IMG/VR virus record: IMGVR_UViG_3300044673_000582
Coordinates: 1 to 27,080 of that record
Origin: a virus
Length of the DNA: 27,080 bases
Strand: one strand, 5' to 3'
Below, piece by piece: positions 1-11,294 of this stretch (position 1 is the stretch's first letter; the number at the start of each line of letters is the position of its first letter). The notes beneath the pieces are model-generated. The model was not told where the DNA came from. It worked only from the letters and a program-made list of their open reading frames with translations, and ran no database searches. A program made the position numbers and the translations under genes.

Positions 1-711
1 ATGGTATCAGAAAAGAGAAAAAGAATTAATAATCTCGTTTTTGGATCTGGACTTATATTTACATTAGTAATACCAGTTTTTTTGCAACTATATTACCATG
101 ATTCAACTGCGGCCTGGATATCTTTATTATGCGGAGCATTTGTAACAATAATGCAAAAATTTGAAGATATTGTTGAACTTTCTTTTGGTCCAATAAAAGC
201 TAGAATGAAAGAAACGATAAAAGAAGCAACAGCTACAATAGAACAGCTTCAGAGAATTGCTAAATCACAATCTAAAGCCATGCTTACTGAAATGATGGCT
301 AGTAGCTTCATGGGTGGAACTAAATTCAGTAATAAAATAGACCTTCATGATGAAGTAATTAGTAATCTTAAAGTAATTGGAATCAGCGAGAGTGAAATTT
401 CAGAAATAGATGAGATGTGGAAACGTGGAATGAATATTATGTATTTAAATACTATAAAGGTAGCGCTCGAAGGAAGACGATCTTCCACAGATTTTAAAAC
501 AGCTGTTCCCGAGGAAGTATCAAGGGCATCCACAGAATTGTCTGAAATGATGGATTTTTCTAAATGGATAGTACCTACTCCAGATGAAATTGAAGGTTTT
601 ATTAGCAGAAAAGGATTAATGAATGATGTTGTCAGCAAAAAGATCGATGACTATCGAACATACAAAAAGGAAGGGAGAATCGTAAATCGGGATATGGTTG
701 ATTGGATATAA
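1..711 (+). CDS. Hypothetical two-TM membrane protein, AT-rich accessory gene
   Basis: 236 aa. The ATG is the first base of the window, so its ribosome site cannot be seen. A short basic N-terminus (KRKR) is followed by two hydrophobic stretches at about residues 12-31 and 37-52, then a soluble, charged, largely helical region to the C-terminus with a possible coiled coil at about 68-95. The likely topology is an N-terminal hairpin in the inner membrane with a cytoplasmic tail. No catalytic motif was recognised. The gene is clearly more AT-rich than the structural genes to its right and is separated from them by a 376-base non-coding stretch, which suggests an independently acquired cargo gene. 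A role in lysogenic conversion or exclusion is possible but only a guess. Confidence 0.7.
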   Translation: MVSEKRKRINNLVFGSGLIFTLVIPVFLQLYYHDSTAAWISLLCGAFVTIMQKFEDIVELSFGPIKARMKETIKEATATIEQLQRIAKSQSKAMLTEMMASSFMGGTKFSNKIDLHDEVISNLKVIGISESEISEIDEMWKRGMNIMYLNTIKVALEGRRSSTDFKTAVPEEVSRASTELSEMMDFSKWIVPTPDEIEGFISRKGLMNDVVSKKIDDYRTYKKEGRIVNRDMVDWI

Positions 712-897
712 AATATACTGGCAACTGCCAAAAATTTAGAATTCTGCTGCTTTACCTCTTCCTGCGGTATTGATACTCATAATATGTACTTATACTCCAA
801 GATTTCAAAAGTATATTGACACACTTTTCGTTTTCGCGCTCTTATATATACAAGGAATCACAATAGTATAACACTACTAACACACAAGAGATGAGAC
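712..897. other. AT-rich non-coding stretch before the structured RNA
   Basis: No open frame of useful length on either strand. It contains the TTGACA at 816-821 and several TATA-like runs. A small TGGC/GCCA inverted repeat (719-722 with 727-730) is followed by AAAA and then TTT, which is too weak to call as a terminator for the gene at 1-711. Confidence 0.5.
816..872 (+). promoter_or_regulatory. Candidate sigma70-type promoter region upstream of the terL leader RNA
   Basis: A perfect TTGACA lies at 816-821. The AT-rich TTATAT/TATATA at 842-848 is the nearest -10-like sequence, but the spacing (20-21) is too long. A better -10 match, TATAAC at 867-872, has no good -35 at the right distance. 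The position fits a start for the structured leader and the terminase operon. Treat this as a region rather than a mapped promoter. Confidence 0.3.
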
Positions 898-1079
898 GAT
901 CACTTTCCTCCGTCTCCAGAGGGCTTCGCTAACGCTCAGCACGACTTCGGAAAGTGCGCCACACGAAAGTGATCTTGAACGAAGGGAGAAAAGACCTGTG
1001 TCACCGAAAGGTGAAGGGGTCCAATCTCTCCATGTTCAAGGAGGTAGTATATACTTATGTGATAGTATGTGACTACTAC
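898..1079 (+). ncRNA. Candidate structured RNA / 5' leader of the terminase operon
   Basis: Three consecutive hairpins can be paired by eye. Hairpin 1 joins GATCACTTTC (898-907) with GAAAGTGATC (965-974), a perfect 10-bp stem. Hairpin 2 (974-1040) is a long stacked arm: CTTGAAC 974-980 with GTTCAAG 1034-1040, GGAGA 985-989 with TCTCC 1027-1031, GACC 993-996 with GGTC 1018-1021, and TCACC 1001-1005 with GGTGA 1010-1014, capped by a GAAA (GNRA) tetraloop at 1006-1009. Hairpin 3 (1044-1079) joins GTAGTA with TACTAC and ATACT 1051-1055 with AGTAT 1064-1068. The terL ribosome site GGAG (1080-1083) follows immediately. The element could be a regulatory leader, a packaging-related RNA or a DNA recognition site for packaging. 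I do not recognise a named RNA family. Confidence 0.6.
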
Positions 1080-1087
1080 GGAGATTT

Positions 1088-2650
1088 ATGGAGTATGTAA
1101 AGACTCCTGCTGAGAAGCGGAAGTATAGCGAGTTCTTTCAAAAGACAGGGAAGGAGGAGTTAGCGGCAGAGCTGTACCTTCAATGGAAGGCACTCACCGA
1201 CTTGTATTTCTTGGGTGCCGTCATCCTTGGCATGGACAAGATCGAAGACGGGGGTCGTCCCCGCCTCGATCCAGTACTTCATGGCTGGCTCGCAGGGATC
1301 ATGGAGAGGAACGACGACACGCTCATCTTGATACCTCGCGGTCACATGAAGTCAGCGTGGACCAAGGTGAAGATCGTCCAGCTCATCTTGCAGAATCCGA
1401 ATATCCGAATTGGACTCTTCTCACGCACATCGAGTCTTGTTGAGTCACAGCTAGGCGAGATTAAGCAGCTCTTTTGCACACCGATGCTCATGCGCTTGTT
1501 CCCCGACCGTATTCCCGAGCCAGGTAAAAGGTTCGTGAACTGGAAAAGGTCAGTCGCGAATGAGCTGACCGTTTATCGATCCAGTGAGTGGGGCAGAATA
1601 CCACAGGAAAACCAAGTGGAGGCCTGGGGAGTAGGAGCGACCATTGTTGGCCGCCATTACGACGTCATCATCATGGACGACATCATCAATGAGCAATCCT
1701 GTTCCACACCTGAGCAGATCAAAAAGGTTCGCGACTGGTATTCCTATATCCAGTCCATAAAAGACCCCGAAGGCTTCGAGTTGATGATAGGCACCCGCTA
1801 CCATTTCTCGGACATCTACGGGACGGTCATGAAGGAAGGCTGGTACAAGGATCGCGTCTACATTCGCCGCGCCGTCGAGGAAGGGAAGCCCATCTATCGA
1901 TTCTTCACCCTCTCGATGCTCGCGAAGATCAAACAACGCCAAGGTGCCTACGAGTATTCATGCCAGTACGACAACAACCCGGTGCCGAGAGATGACCAGA
2001 TATTCCCTCCCCCGCAGCCGACCTATGTGGTTCTAGCTCCGGGTGCCTACAGCTACTACATGACGGTGGACCCTGCGGCGACGGCAGAAACCTACTCGGA
2101 TGATACGGGTGTGATCATCGGCGCGGTCAACTCGGAAGGCTTTCTCTATGTGGTGGAAGCAAAGAAGATCCACTTAAAGCCGGACAAGATGGTGGATGAG
2201 CTTATTAGGCTCATCGTGCAGTACAAGCCTAAAGTCGTCGGCATCGAGCTGGGATTGCAGGCAGGTATTCAATACCTCCTCGACATCAAGAAACGCGAGT
2301 ACGAAGAGATCACCGGGAAGCCGTTGCGGTTCAAGCTGCAAGAGATCGACGCCCCGCGATCGATGTCAAAGGAAGACAAGATCAACCGAGTCCTTGGCGG
2401 CGTCGTCCGGGCTGGCAGGGTGTTCATCCAGGAAACGTTAGCCGACTTACTCCTCCAAATGGAATTCTTTCCCAAAGGGGAACACGACGATCTCGTAGAT
2501 GCGCTCACGATGATGGTCCAGATCATTACAGAGTTCACAGCCGGAGGTTCCGGCGATGCGCTAAGACAAGCAGCCTATCGGCCTGATTCGCTGTTTGGGA
2601 TGTTCAAGAAACGGCTTCGTTCGTCATGGGAGGCGAAATTTGTTGCGTAG
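1088..2650 (+). CDS. terL: Terminase large subunit (packaging ATPase/nuclease)
   Basis: 520 aa, a normal length for the family. It drives ATP-dependent packaging of DNA into the procapsid through the portal and cuts concatemeric DNA. The ATPase half shows a Walker A-like IPRGHMKS (82-89), a Walker B VIIMDD (193-198) and a coupling-type GTRYH (235-239). The C-terminal RNase H-like nuclease half shows the acidic set TVDPA (D328), GIELG (E387) and EHDDLVDAL (D467/D468/D471). The start ATG has GGAG at 1080-1083, directly after the leader hairpins. No small terminase subunit gene was recognised upstream, where it is commonly found. The downstream genes follow with little or no gap, so terL heads the structural operon. 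Confidence 0.97.
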   Translation: MEYVKTPAEKRKYSEFFQKTGKEELAAELYLQWKALTDLYFLGAVILGMDKIEDGGRPRLDPVLHGWLAGIMERNDDTLILIPRGHMKSAWTKVKIVQLILQNPNIRIGLFSRTSSLVESQLGEIKQLFCTPMLMRLFPDRIPEPGKRFVNWKRSVANELTVYRSSEWGRIPQENQVEAWGVGATIVGRHYDVIIMDDIINEQSCSTPEQIKKVRDWYSYIQSIKDPEGFELMIGTRYHFSDIYGTVMKEGWYKDRVYIRRAVEEGKPIYRFFTLSMLAKIKQRQGAYEYSCQYDNNPVPRDDQIFPPPQPTYVVLAPGAYSYYMTVDPAATAETYSDDTGVIIGAVNSEGFLYVVEAKKIHLKPDKMVDELIRLIVQYKPKVVGIELGLQAGIQYLLDIKKREYEEITGKPLRFKLQEIDAPRSMSKEDKINRVLGGVVRAGRVFIQETLADLLLQMEFFPKGEHDDLVDALTMMVQIITEFTAGGSGDALRQAAYRPDSLFGMFKKRLRSSWEAKFVA

Positions 2651-6139: not shown

Positions 6140-7138
6140 ATGGCTCTAGAGATTTCCCAGGCGAATGCGGTGAGCCGCCAGTATTTCGAGAAGGCGCTTC
6201 TCAACATCGCGTATGACAATTCCCCCTTCTACAAAAAGCTGAAGAAAGGGAACCAGGTGAAGGTGAAAGGCGGCACCCACATCCAGTGGCCTATCCGCTA
6301 TACGGCCATGTCCGGCAACGGCGCGGTGAAGGGTGTCGATCCCGCCGCTCCCGTGACCTACGGCGTGGGCGACTCAAGGACTGCCGCGAAGTCTTCGTGG
6401 AAGTATTACTTCGGTTCCACGCAGATTAACTGGCAGGAGCGAGTCGAGAACGTGGGCGAAGCGCAGATTGTGTCCCTCCTCAAGGACAAGTACGTGGAGC
6501 TTCAGGAGGACTACGAGGACAAGATGGCGAAGGACCTCTACTCGACGGCAGCCTACGATGAATCCTGCCTCGATATGATCTCCCCCCTCACCTTCTTAGT
6601 CTCCGGGCAGAAGTACGCGGGGATCGACCCTGCCGACGCTCCCAACTGGAAGTCGAAAGTCTATGCGGGAACCGACTGGACCGTCCTCGACCTGTATACC
6701 GATGATGCAGTGAAGGGCAAGAAATCGCTCTACAAGGCAATCGTCGCGTCCACTTTCGGCGGTAAGAAACCCAAATTTATCCTCACGACCGAGGATGTCC
6801 TTGCGACGCTCAAGGAGAAGATTTGGCTTGCCACGAAGTATGAAGGAACCTCGGACAAGGAAACCGCCGACATGGGCTTCACCAACGTGACCTTCGAAGG
6901 CACGACCATCCTTGCCGATCCTTTCTGCCCTCCTGGCTATCTCTTCGGCCTCGACATGAACGCCTTCGAGTTCCAGATTCACCCGGATTTCAACTTCAAG
7001 ACGGACGATTGGGCTCCCCTTGAGAATTATCCCAACAACCTCGTGAAGAAGATGTCCTTCTCCGGGAACACGGTGATGAAATACCGCCACACGTCCTTCG
7101 TGTTCAACGGCCTCACCGGGGTTGAGAAGGCGGCGTAA
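6140..7138 (+). CDS. Major capsid protein
   Basis: 332 aa, with a strong AAGGAG site ahead of the ATG, in keeping with high expression. The N-terminus (MALEISQANAVSRQYFEKAL) and the following segment with IQWPIRY and YFGSTQINWQERVENVG are typical of phage major capsid proteins with the HK97-like fold. The position immediately after scaffold is diagnostic. No N-terminal delta-domain or maturation protease is apparent, consistent with a separate scaffold. Its stop is followed after 5 bases by the next gene, which lies in the -1 frame; no slippery site was found, so a T7 gp10B-like frameshift product is not supported. Confidence 0.92.
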   Translation: MALEISQANAVSRQYFEKALLNIAYDNSPFYKKLKKGNQVKVKGGTHIQWPIRYTAMSGNGAVKGVDPAAPVTYGVGDSRTAAKSSWKYYFGSTQINWQERVENVGEAQIVSLLKDKYVELQEDYEDKMAKDLYSTAAYDESCLDMISPLTFLVSGQKYAGIDPADAPNWKSKVYAGTDWTVLDLYTDDAVKGKKSLYKAIVASTFGGKKPKFILTTEDVLATLKEKIWLATKYEGTSDKETADMGFTNVTFEGTTILADPFCPPGYLFGLDMNAFEFQIHPDFNFKTDDWAPLENYPNNLVKKMSFSGNTVMKYRHTSFVFNGLTGVEKAA

Positions 7139-7557: not shown

Positions 7558-8123
7558 CGTTAAAAAGCATGATCGAGAAAGCGCGCCGCCTCTCTAGGAC
7601 AGGAGCTTCCGTAAGCGATGAGATCGTAAAAGACTGGATCAACGAGGCCATGCGTCAATTCGTCATCGATGCTGGCGGCATTACGGAAGTCGGAGAACTC
7701 ACCATCGTAGGGAATTCGGCGGCGGTCCCTGAGCATTTCTTTAGTCTTCATCACCTCTTCATAGGGAGAAATGAGCTTCGTCGCGGCTCGATGCAGATTC
7801 TTGCCAACGCCGATATCGAGGGTACTCCCGCCCTGTACTTTCTATCAGCAGGTAAAATTCTTTTTGATAGAAAGTGTTCATCACCCGGAATGCCCTGCCG
7901 GATCATCTATGACCGCTTCCCCGTGGAACTAGTCGAAGAGACCGACATCCCGGAACTACCTGAGAAAGCACACCTGGCCTTAGCCTATCTCGCCGCCTCC
8001 AAGCTCTCGGAGGAGAACTTTGAATATGACGAGGCGACACGGGCTTTAGCCAATTACCGCAATGAAATCCAGCGGTATCTGCAAGATCAGTCAAATGCCA
8101 ACCCTTCAATATTTGGAAAATAA
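7554..8123 (+). CDS. Head-tail adaptor (connector) protein candidate
   Basis: 189 aa from GTG 7554, which overlaps the previous TGA (GTGA) and has AAAGGA 6 bases upstream; a TTG at 7548 is a poorer choice. The sequence (LKSMIEKARRLSRTGASVSDEIVKDWINEAMRQFV, here described by its start at residue 2) has the helical opening seen in gp6/gp11-type adaptors, and the C-terminus (ALAYLAASKLSEENFEYDEA) is also adaptor-like, with a helix that would pack on the portal. Gene order matches T7 gp11 (tail tubular protein A). The gene contains an 11-bp split inverted repeat at 7837-7875. Family assignment is by resemblance only. Confidence 0.7.
   Translation: MTLKSMIEKARRLSRTGASVSDEIVKDWINEAMRQFVIDAGGITEVGELTIVGNSAAVPEHFFSLHHLFIGRNELRRGSMQILANADIEGTPALYFLSAGKILFDRKCSSPGMPCRIIYDRFPVELVEETDIPELPEKAHLALAYLAASKLSEENFEYDEATRALANYRNEIQRYLQDQSNANPSIFGK
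7837..7875. repeat. Perfect 11-bp inverted repeat inside the adaptor gene
   Basis: ACTTTCTATCA (7837-7847) and TGATAGAAAGT (7865-7875) pair perfectly across a 17-base loop. The arms contain the same CTTTCTA/TAGAAAG core as the nearby palindromes, so this may be a member of the same family with separated halves. As RNA it would form a stable hairpin in the middle of the gene. Confidence 0.6.
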
Positions 8124-8127
8124 AGCT

Positions 8128-9951
8128 ATGCCGGGAACCATAAAAACCTACCTGGATTTTTCAGGTGGCTTCCACACGGATACCCCCTCCTCCTTCATGG
8201 CCGATTCGGACCTTACGATGGCCGAGAACTGTTACTGGAAAAACGGCCTTTCTATTAGAAAGGGCTACACTCTCAAAACGAGCTTTGAAGGAGAAGAAAT
8301 CATCGGGTTCCTGCGCACATGTATTTCCGGGGTCATGCGGGATTACATCGCCGCGAAGACAGAAAGCGGGGTGATCCTTCATATCGAGAATGGGACAGGC
8401 TACGAAGCCCTGCCGCTTTCCCTCATCTCCCTGTCCGAAACGTCCCTGCGCATGATCGAGTATTCCGGGCTCATCGTGATTGTGGGACAAGGTGGCTACT
8501 CGAAGGCATCCATTGTTCAATTTTTAAACGGGGAATACTCCGAAACCTCCCTCGATGCCCTCGATACACGGACTCGCGAATACTACGACTGGAACGCTGG
8601 ACGCGCCTCATTCGGGGTCTACACCGATGACACCCTGGCCGCCCAAAGCGGCGTATGGACGCTCTGCCCGGCTTCGGGTGAGGGCTTCTATATCGCCTCC
8701 GATCTCGTATTCAACCGTATTGAGATCGGCAATGTCTCAGCTCCCATCCAGAGCGCAACGGTGAGGATTTCCACGAAAGACGGCTGGAAAACTGTAACGC
8801 CCCGGATACTCACCGTGGAGAACCGTTTAGAGCTAGAGTTCGACCTTGAATTCAAGGGAACGGGGATCACCTTCACGCCTTCCACCCTCGACACCCAGTT
8901 CAAGGACCAGTACGCCGTCGAAGTATCCTTTCTATTAGAAGGTATTTCCCTTTCTGGCAGTATAGAAGAAGTGCGGCATACGCAGTACTTCAGCCAAATC
9001 ACGGGCAACGAGAATCCCACCGATGCCGCCGTGTATCGCTCGATGCTCTGCCTCGCAGCCGGAAACGTGGTCAACTTCTCTCCTCCCGATTCAGTCTCAG
9101 GCTGGCGCGGCGACGATGTTGAAATCTTCGTCGAAGGTGGAACGGGCATACAGCGGATCGTGAATTTCAAGGACTCGATGCTCGTCTTCAAGCGCCTTGC
9201 GCTCTACGGCTTTTCAGGGAACTCCCTCAACTCCCCCACCGTGACGAGGATTGCCGATGTCGGCACCGATCAGCCGGATTCCGTTGTGTCGCTTGAAAGC
9301 GAGATCATGTTCGTCTCTGGCGATAAGGTTCTCCTCTACGACGGCGCGACCACCGCCGTGGTGAGCGATCACATAGCGAAGGAACTTTCCGGGAAGCTCT
9401 CGCAAGGCGCTCATGCCATCGCTGATGAGGAGGGCAGGTACTTCGTCCTCGGCGCGAATCACGGCTACCTCTTCCTCCCTCAGACTCTACGGCGCAACAC
9501 TGCGGGAGCCTTTATCATCTCGGCGTTCAAATTCACGAATCATCCATTCTCAGGCTTCGGTAAGCGCAATGATCTAGGCGACATCGTTGCGTGGAAAGAC
9601 GGCGGGCTCTACACGCTTTTCTCAAGCACCACAGATGCGGGAAACCCAATAGCCCTTGATATCCGCACGAAAGACATGGATTTCGGATTCCCTGGAAGTC
9701 AGAAACGGTTTTTCAGATTCAAGCCGATTGGCATGTACAACGAGGATGAGGAACCAGAATTCCTTGTGCAGTTTGTCGCGGATTCCGTACGCGCTCATAT
9801 CGCATGGATCAAAGAGGAGAACTTTTCAGGTTTCGTGAGCATCCCCTATGCGATGGACGGCCTTTCACTCTCCGTGAGGATCGCATCCTTTTCCCAAACA
9901 CAGGCAGGACTTCAGGGCTTCGCGCTCGACATGAAGGGAGGAACGTTCTAA
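8128..9951 (+). CDS. Tail hub / tubular protein candidate
   Basis: 607 aa from ATG 8128, five bases after the adaptor stop; the frame is open to 8062, but that extension would overlap the adaptor and is not needed. The N-terminal signature, GG-x-x-TD followed by an A-x-N...NGLSIRKGY segment (residues about 13-48), is common in podovirus tail or head-closure proteins. The remainder is rich in short beta-strand repeats, suggesting a beta-propeller, as in T7 gp12 (tail tubular protein B) or P22 gp10. Gene order after the adaptor favours that role. Copies 2 and 3 of the short palindrome lie within this gene. Confidence 0.65.
   Translation: MPGTIKTYLDFSGGFHTDTPSSFMADSDLTMAENCYWKNGLSIRKGYTLKTSFEGEEIIGFLRTCISGVMRDYIAAKTESGVILHIENGTGYEALPLSLISLSETSLRMIEYSGLIVIVGQGGYSKASIVQFLNGEYSETSLDALDTRTREYYDWNAGRASFGVYTDDTLAAQSGVWTLCPASGEGFYIASDLVFNRIEIGNVSAPIQSATVRISTKDGWKTVTPRILTVENRLELEFDLEFKGTGITFTPSTLDTQFKDQYAVEVSFLLEGISLSGSIEEVRHTQYFSQITGNENPTDAAVYRSMLCLAAGNVVNFSPPDSVSGWRGDDVEIFVEGGTGIQRIVNFKDSMLVFKRLALYGFSGNSLNSPTVTRIADVGTDQPDSVVSLESEIMFVSGDKVLLYDGATTAVVSDHIAKELSGKLSQGAHAIADEEGRYFVLGANHGYLFLPQTLRRNTAGAFIISAFKFTNHPFSGFGKRNDLGDIVAWKDGGLYTLFSSTTDAGNPIALDIRTKDMDFGFPGSQKRFFRFKPIGMYNEDEEPEFLVQFVADSVRAHIAWIKEENFSGFVSIPYAMDGLSLSVRIASFSQTQAGLQGFALDMKGGTF
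8247..8263. repeat. Short palindrome, copy 2 (perfect 8-bp arms)
   Basis: CCTTTCTA T TAGAAAGG, a perfect 17-base palindrome around one central base. It reads LSIRK in the gene frame, whereas copy 3 falls in another codon phase. Confidence 0.6.
8927..8942. repeat. Short palindrome, copy 3
   Basis: CCTTTCTATTAGAAGG, 15 of 16 bases identical to copy 1 with the central base swapped. It encodes FLLEG, a different codon phase from copies 1 and 2, which argues that any conservation acts on DNA or RNA and not on the protein. Confidence 0.6.
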
Positions 9952-11294
9952 TGCTGAAAAGACAGCGCAATGACCTCGAAGACGATGCTATCGATTTCGA
10001 GAGCAACCCCTTCGATGTTCTCGCCCGTGATCCCCTCGCGACCGAAAACATTCTCCCCACAGGCGGCTACGATCCGTATGTTCCCTTCGTTTTCGATGAG
10101 AACAATATCGTCCATGATTCAAGGACTCCCGCTGAACGCGCAAGGGCGAGACGCGAAAGCATGCGAGGGGAAGCGGATGACGGCTTTACTGCCCCTACCG
10201 CATCTCCTCAAGCAGAGGAAAAGCCCGCCACTCTCCCCAACGGACAGCCTAAGAAAACCACTGATGAACTCATGAACATCATCAAGGCGAATCCCACCGC
10301 CTTGAAGCTTGAGGACATCGATTTCTCCGATCCTTCCCAGGTTGATGCCGTGGTGGCCGAACTGAAACAGGCGATGCTAAACGGCTCAGGCGAAATGCGG
10401 TACGAAACCGTCTTGCCCGGGGATGCCTCAGGCCGAGCGCCGGGCATTTATGACAAGGCATCAGGCCAGCTTATCCAGGCTTACGGCGACACGACCGCAT
10501 TAGAGGAACAGAACGCCGGAATCACGGCAAAGCTTGCCTCACTTTCATCAGGGCAGAGCGATGACTACTTGAGCGCTCTTGCCGCCATGCAGGAAGCGCA
10601 AGGAAAAGTGACGGGAGGCATCACAGAAGCCGACACCGAAGCTGGATACAACCGCCTCGATACCCTCATGGGCGGCGATTATCAGGGGACGATGGATACG
10701 CTCTCAGGAAGCGTGGGATCGGGGATCACGGGACAGGAAGGGCTTTCGGCAGAGGAAAAGGCGCTCTACCAGAGAGCGAACGAGAAGACCCTTGCGATGG
10801 AAAGCGCAAGCGCCCAGAGAACTTTGAATTCCGTCCGGGCGTCCACAGGCTCCACGATGGCCTTCCTAGCCTCTGCCGATGAAGTGCGGGCAAGCATCTC
10901 AAACCTTCGCACCCAGCAGGATGTTGGGCTCCTCAACGCCGACATGGCGAGGAAGGAGAAGAACTACCAGAACAAGGCCGAACAGTATTACGGGCTCTTG
11001 GAGCAGGGGCGCATAAGCATCGATGAATATGAGGACGGATTACGGGCTGAGCGCTTCAACGCCTTCCAGGCAACCGCTTCGACGCTCACCCAGATCGCTT
11101 CCCGCGACAGCGAGGAAATTCAAAACCTTACCCGGCTTGCGGATGTCATTTATGCCCAGATCAACGCCCAGAATGCGAAGGATAAAGAAGCCTATCAGAT
11201 GTGGATAGACCGCGCGAATCAGAATGTCGCGCCGATCAAGAACCTCCTGGATGCCATCATGGCGCAGGACACCCTTGTGACAAGTAGAACGTAA
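9951..11294 (+). CDS. Probable internal virion / DNA-ejection protein
   Basis: 447 aa from ATG 9951, overlapping the previous stop as TAATG with GGGAGG upstream; an in-frame extension to 9804 lies inside the preceding gene and has no ribosome site. The N-terminal 120 residues are acidic and Pro-rich, probably disordered (TASPQAEEKPATLPNGQPKK). The C-terminal half is helical and Ala/Gln-rich, with coiled-coil-like stretches (NADMARKEKNYQNKAEQYYG and following). No enzyme motif was seen. Position between the tail protein and the two large helical proteins fits the ejection-protein cluster of podoviruses (T7 gp14-gp16 by order). Confidence 0.65.
   Translation: MLKRQRNDLEDDAIDFESNPFDVLARDPLATENILPTGGYDPYVPFVFDENNIVHDSRTPAERARARRESMRGEADDGFTAPTASPQAEEKPATLPNGQPKKTTDELMNIIKANPTALKLEDIDFSDPSQVDAVVAELKQAMLNGSGEMRYETVLPGDASGRAPGIYDKASGQLIQAYGDTTALEEQNAGITAKLASLSSGQSDDYLSALAAMQEAQGKVTGGITEADTEAGYNRLDTLMGGDYQGTMDTLSGSVGSGITGQEGLSAEEKALYQRANEKTLAMESASAQRTLNSVRASTGSTMAFLASADEVRASISNLRTQQDVGLLNADMARKEKNYQNKAEQYYGLLEQGRISIDEYEDGLRAERFNAFQATASTLTQIASRDSEEIQNLTRLADVIYAQINAQNAKDKEAYQMWIDRANQNVAPIKNLLDAIMAQDTLVTSRT

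Follow-up and report, generated by a model that had tools for sequence, protein, structure and literature searches.

The locus ahead of the large terminase gene (terL) of this phage raises the question of what a short non-coding stretch does there, and whether it is read as RNA or as DNA. An earlier note had described a structured RNA of three hairpins at 898-1079, ending just before the terL ribosome site. The window, by which we mean the whole stretch of DNA analysed (27,080 bases, IMG/VR record IMGVR_UViG_3300044673_000582), bears no end repeats, and its gene content is that of the late half of a temperate tailed phage:

1088-2650, plus strand: terL, large terminase of 520 aa with a PF17289 nuclease domain (phrog_38, E 1.4e-72), first gene of the late operon
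Further genes of the window: P22-like portal, major head protein, tail genes, M15 endolysin and overlapping Rz/Rz1-like genes
Far right of the window, minus strand: tyrosine integrase

The overlapping Rz/Rz1-like genes and the M15 endolysin point to a diderm bacterial host, as far as gene content can indicate one. The sole annotated phage record matched by the major head protein (6140-7138) is Methanosarcina virus MetMV (22.9% identity, E 3e-11), in contrast to the lysis genes and the bacterial host that they indicate. Two large late ORFs in the mechanical ORF list (8062-9951 and 9804-11294) overlap by about 150 bases, so their true starts need checking.

TerL is 93-96% identical in 12 further IMG/VR records, which together with the window form a group of 13. 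No relative of the phage was found in the GTDB genome collection, and TerL matches annotated phages only at about 25% identity; by these comparisons, none of the collections searched contains a described phage close to this group. Two pairs of records are duplicates (G001 and G002 are identical across the 4.9-kb left flank compared, and G003 and G004 match exactly across the 1.2 kb compared), and their removal left 11 distinct leaders for alignment, namely the window and 10 relatives. At its left end the 47-kb relative G004 has another integrase-like frame, which is partial (87 aa, 39% identity; L031, G004:C1:980-1195, minus strand) and possibly belongs to a neighbouring element or is a remnant. 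The DNA ahead of terL is made up of the following parts:

796-902, plus strand: promoter-like region of the terL operon, with TTGACA at 816-821, AAAAGTNTN upstream of it and an AT-rich -10-like element at about 840-851
903-954, plus strand: ultra-conserved core of 52 nt, CTTTCCTCCGTCTCCAGAGGGCTTCGCTAACGCTCAGCACGACTTCGGAAAG, 44 of its 52 columns being the same across 11 sequences
903-908/949-954, 912-914/943-945 and 921-924/934-937, plus strand: possible core hairpin, from unguided RNAalifold on the whole alignment
955-1026, plus strand: linker without alignable conservation, bearing in the window most of the long GNRA-capped arm
1027-1054, plus strand: conserved block TCTC[C/G]ATGnTCAAGGAGGtggTnTATAC, from the alignment, with a Shine-Dalgarno (SD)-like AAGGAGG that can pair with the block's own CTCC
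1059-1076, plus strand: position of a covarying hairpin adjoining the terL SD, from RNAalifold and substitutions in relatives
1080-1083, plus strand: terL SD, GGAG, invariant in 11/11 leaders, with the ATG at 1088

Folding of the leader is strong in the window: the 890-1085 segment has a predicted energy of -67.3 kcal/mol (z -3.36, with none of 200 shuffles as good), and the long arm alone gives a z-score of -4.85. The arm was correctly recognised at 974-1040, where a GAAA loop (1006-1009) is closed by CACC/GGTG, but its upper helices (985-989/1027-1031 and 1001-1005/1010-1014) occur in the window only when the 11 leaders are aligned, and its basal helix (974-980/1034-1040) is shared by the window and two close relatives, G004 and G005, but not by the other leaders. 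Likewise, the 10-bp stem joins two perfectly complementary sequences, GATCACTTTC (898-907) and GAAAGTGATC (965-974), but appears in neither the minimum-energy nor the centroid fold and is complete in the window alone, with 2-5 of the 10 pairs left in the other rows of the alignment; it competes with an alternative hairpin, 903-908/949-954, whose stem persists in relatives with few mismatches. The third hairpin, just ahead of the terL ribosome site, is there at about 1043-1077. Three of the four helices listed in the earlier note thus fail in homologous phages, which is the comparison that it had itself put forward for refuting the structure, and a conserved three-hairpin RNA is not supported. 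Nor was a shared fold of the linker found across relatives by a sequence-independent comparison (mountain-plot correlation 0.313 against a null of 0.406). Linker folding scores stand out in the window, G007 and G009 and are close to chance for most of the other leaders; these three have a hairpin in one common position that was suggestive by eye and failed the mountain-plot test. That the functional unit is the three-hairpin RNA as drawn is most improbable, its strong folding in the window being set against helices missing in relatives and a linker without a common fold. The earlier note caught a real control region, but the parts that it singled out are the least conserved ones. That the best-folding helices are conserved least here shows that strong folding of a single genome can be misleading.

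The lasting finding, from the sequences compared, is instead the 52-nt core together with the covarying hairpin beside the SD, neither of which is described in the sources searched. Nucleotide identity, averaged over sequence pairs, is 0.945 in the core versus 0.841 in terL, compared with 0.62 in the promoter-like part, 0.43 in the linker and 0.68 in the block plus SD hairpin. The best 52-column stretch of terL also has 44 invariant columns, the terL mean is 34, and only 19% of third codon positions are invariant; the constraint on the core equals that on the most constrained coding stretch of terL, without coding. A protein-coding role was rejected because one-base deletions inside the core in G004, G005 and G009 shift every frame. 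The core is present in single copy per phage and is confined to the 13 records of this group. It was not found elsewhere when viral, GTDB genome, phage and plasmid collections were searched, and each half used separately as a query gave no extra phage record of the group; matches to the left half elsewhere were rejected as chance 17-mers with unrelated flanks. A non-coding 52 nt kept more strictly than most of the adjoining terL would mark an essential cis-acting step of the late programme, and the core probably serves the late genes as a switch or a landing site.

Whether the core is read as RNA or as DNA is a matter on which its own variation says little, and it may be either. Unguided folding of the alignment recovers a core hairpin in which 92.7% of cells are paired and one G-U pair is retained in 11/11 leaders, but no pair is changed on both sides; the hairpin lacks covariation because the sequence hardly varies. 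Two of its stem pairs carry unrepaired mismatches (U-A to A-C in G004 and G005, and C-G to C-A in G010). Folding z-scores of the core average about -1, and the hairpin is often unpopulated in folds of the full leader.

In longer relatives the order from left to right is conserved early genes, an Arc-like small gene, a terS-like gene, a variable region, the conserved element and terL, so that phage DNA continues leftward of the element. The terS-like gene (about 180 aa) scores as a small terminase (PF03592, phrog_51), and a 48-aa stretch of its product weakly resembles the TerS of TP901-1/ul36. It lies about 1.2-3 kb upstream, separated from the core by a variable accessory region that includes minus-strand genes in G007, G008 and G010. 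This terS-terL interval is a hot spot where nearly every relative has accessory genes of its own, unrelated to those of the others (L034, L035, L037, L038 and others; window 1-711). The left gene of the window, at 1-711, belongs to the variable region and matches no known family; DNA homology with the closest relatives starts at about 796-892, and the DNA leftward of that is variable and accessory. Among the accessory genes, one in G006 resembles AriA/AriB of the PARIS defence system (PADLOC E 1.2e-7), and one in G012 encodes a 528-aa P-loop ATPase whose family matches are only weak.

Because terS is cut off from terL by accessory genes, some of them on the minus strand, terL needs a promoter of its own and appears to start its own operon. 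We infer that this promoter lies in the element at 796-902. TTGAC is invariant in 11/11 leaders, the upstream AAAAG is conserved, and an exact pattern for the TTGACA motif matches 10 of the 12 relatives, where it occurs once per genome and always ahead of the core. A consensus promoter scan did not list the TTGACA element, so the -10 is uncertain. Neither the element nor the core occurs without the other; each genome has them once, in the same order and 78-90 nt apart (11/11 leaders). The earlier proposal of a cis-acting region for terL is supported, given a leader that follows a conserved promoter-like element and covariation, in relatives, of the hairpin next to the SD.

Our tentative preference, and a possibility that we rate somewhat short of an even chance, is that 796-1087 comprises the promoter and 5' leader of a late operon headed by terL, with the core acting promoter-proximally on the late transcription complex and the distal leader tuning translation of terL. 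The entry of accessory genes between terS and terL would have gone together with a separate promoter for terL; transcription would start about 45 nt ahead of the core, and the core would act in cis close to the promoter, probably being recognised in the nascent transcript or in the DNA under transcription. By analogy with put, ops and nut, it might condition the late transcription complex for an operon of about 24 kb through antitermination or processivity. The recovery of the core hairpin by RNAalifold and the covariation of the SD hairpin speak for this leader. Against it stand the absence of compensatory change in the core hairpin, the unrepaired breaks in its variable pairs and the modest z-scores. 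In addition, a terminator scan of the operon gave no clear surplus of plus-strand terminator-like sites, and no antiterminator gene, including a Q homologue, was identified.

Two relatives with mosaic leaders bear on how the parts belong together. G011 joins a window-like promoter side (0.87 identity) to the linker of G012 (0.93), and G008 joins a G005-like promoter side (0.84) to a G002-like terL (0.91) through an unrelated, longer leader; both junctions fall at the core. In G008 the promoter-like element and the core are kept, while everything between core and terL is replaced and the block and SD hairpin are lost, an arrangement that places the core with the promoter and not with terL translation. 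These junctions could also be taken to mean that the core is a DNA operator or a recombination joint, a module boundary conserved for the exchange of accessory cassettes. We consider this improbable, since the accessory DNA ends about 100 bp to the left of the core rather than at it. An attP was rejected, with the integrase at the opposite end, far to the right, and phage genes on both sides of the core, the early genes lying leftward.

The same junctions are compatible with the main rival to a role in late transcription, in which the core is where DNA packaging begins, a cos or pac site that TerS/TerL recognise as double-stranded DNA, and the RNA folds are incidental. This is unproven and doubtful, if almost as likely as the transcriptional role. 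The core lies 171-176 bp before the terL ATG in 10/11 leaders, comparable to the roughly 190 bp from the left end of lambda to nu1, and it lies where accessory genes give way to a packaging gene; its sequence is conserved and its pairing is not. The near-constant length from core to terL, kept despite unrelated linker sequence, would suit a spacing requirement at the DNA level: core end to block end measures 84-88 nt in all 10 leaders that have the block. The cos sites of lambda, P2 and PaP3 are likewise short, strongly conserved non-coding sequences near terminase genes at a module border, but here TerS is encoded on the far side of the accessory region, and the one-base deletions among relatives (G004, G005 and G009) would alter a cos overhang if they fell inside it. 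Similarity of the core to the cos regions of lambda, P2 and PaP3 was at chance against a shuffled core (p 0.28, 0.385 and 0.315), which counts against the idea without excluding a cos function, as cos sites that are unrelated may well differ in sequence. No contig was found to end inside the core, which is weak evidence. The P22-like portal and the TP901-1/ul36-like stretch of TerS would suit headful packaging, and in headful phages pac usually lies in or near terS.

A packaging role for the RNA itself, of the kind played by the phi29 pRNA, had been raised by the earlier note and is without support. The likeness is the idea of a structured RNA tied to packaging, but phi29 uses its own type of ATPase without TerS, whereas this phage has an ordinary TerS (PF03592) and a 520-aa, nuclease-bearing TerL (PF17289). 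The statement that no named family fits the leader is borne out, as no Rfam family reached its gathering score; at a permissive threshold Rfam gave two weak hits only (the L31 and L13 leaders), far below gathering scores.

Returning to the leader as a late-transcription element, the closest parallel is put of phage HK022, an element of about 70 nt with two stem-loops that binds the zinc-binding domain of beta' and serves the early genes (PMC9378689). Through this domain of RNAP, put suppresses termination. Like put, the core would be a cis element just past a phage promoter and ahead of a long operon, with a possible hairpin containing internal loops; it differs in being a single 52-nt hairpin with internal loops at a late operon, where put has two stem-loops. 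The comparison of placement relies on the conserved TTGACA, with a putative -10 and start site. In sequence, the best local score of the core against HK022 25.5-30 kb, a stretch that we take to hold putL and putR though they are not annotated in the record, was at chance (p 0.595). In lambda, too, a late promoter (pR') is followed by a leader where transcription is modified by Q, but here the conserved core is well downstream of the promoter-like element and not around the -10. The core might even represent a new class of small RNAs acting in cis, unrelated in sequence to put, through which the late transcription complex becomes termination-resistant with no dedicated phage protein. We regard this as quite unlikely; if true, it would be a valuable find, an antiterminator that needs no protein in phages other than the lambdoid ones.

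The distal leader is where pairing, as opposed to sequence, is conserved. In the relatives, 95% of cells of the SD-proximal hairpin are paired, 4 of 6 pairs have compensatory changes and 14 cells are changed on both sides, giving a covariation score of 0.652 versus 0.276 when shuffled (sd 0.061; 0/500) and at most 0.263 when slid, figures that are inflated by kinship among the sequences. The pair types differ by lineage (A-U/G-C; U-A/A-U/G-C; U-A/C-G). The window's homologous helix is degraded; its 3' arm is used by the longer local fold at about 1043-1077. Upstream, RNAalifold gives a short CTC/GAG helix within the block (alignment columns 260-263/274-277). A leader peptide starting at the ATG of the block is unlikely on inspection, with no SD ahead of it and stops that differ, the earliest at codon 12 in G010 and G012.

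One could suppose that the whole leader is a translational control RNA for terL, with the SD-like block as a decoy or standby site, the hairpin as its companion, and the core as a protein- or ribosome-binding part. The AAGGAGG block, its CTCC/GGAG helix and the covarying hairpin adjoining the SD fit this scheme. It nevertheless seems unlikely, the core being retained by G008 without block or hairpin. Pairing of the core with the terL SD was also rejected, appearing in some folds only and being broken by core changes in G004, G006 and G012. Within the late-operon leader that we prefer, the SD-like block and the SD-side hairpin would tune translation of terL downstream of the core.

Two observations concern the DNA between core and terL. 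The linker is unalignable even between relatives whose terL genes are 91-93% identical (G007/G009 and G002/G008), its length being kept in G007 and G009 (window 955-1026; L003, L008, L010). The leader of G008, which is 86 nt longer than the others (L009 4740-5001), has different hairpins, and a CTCC/GGGAG helix ahead of terL may sequester the SD there.
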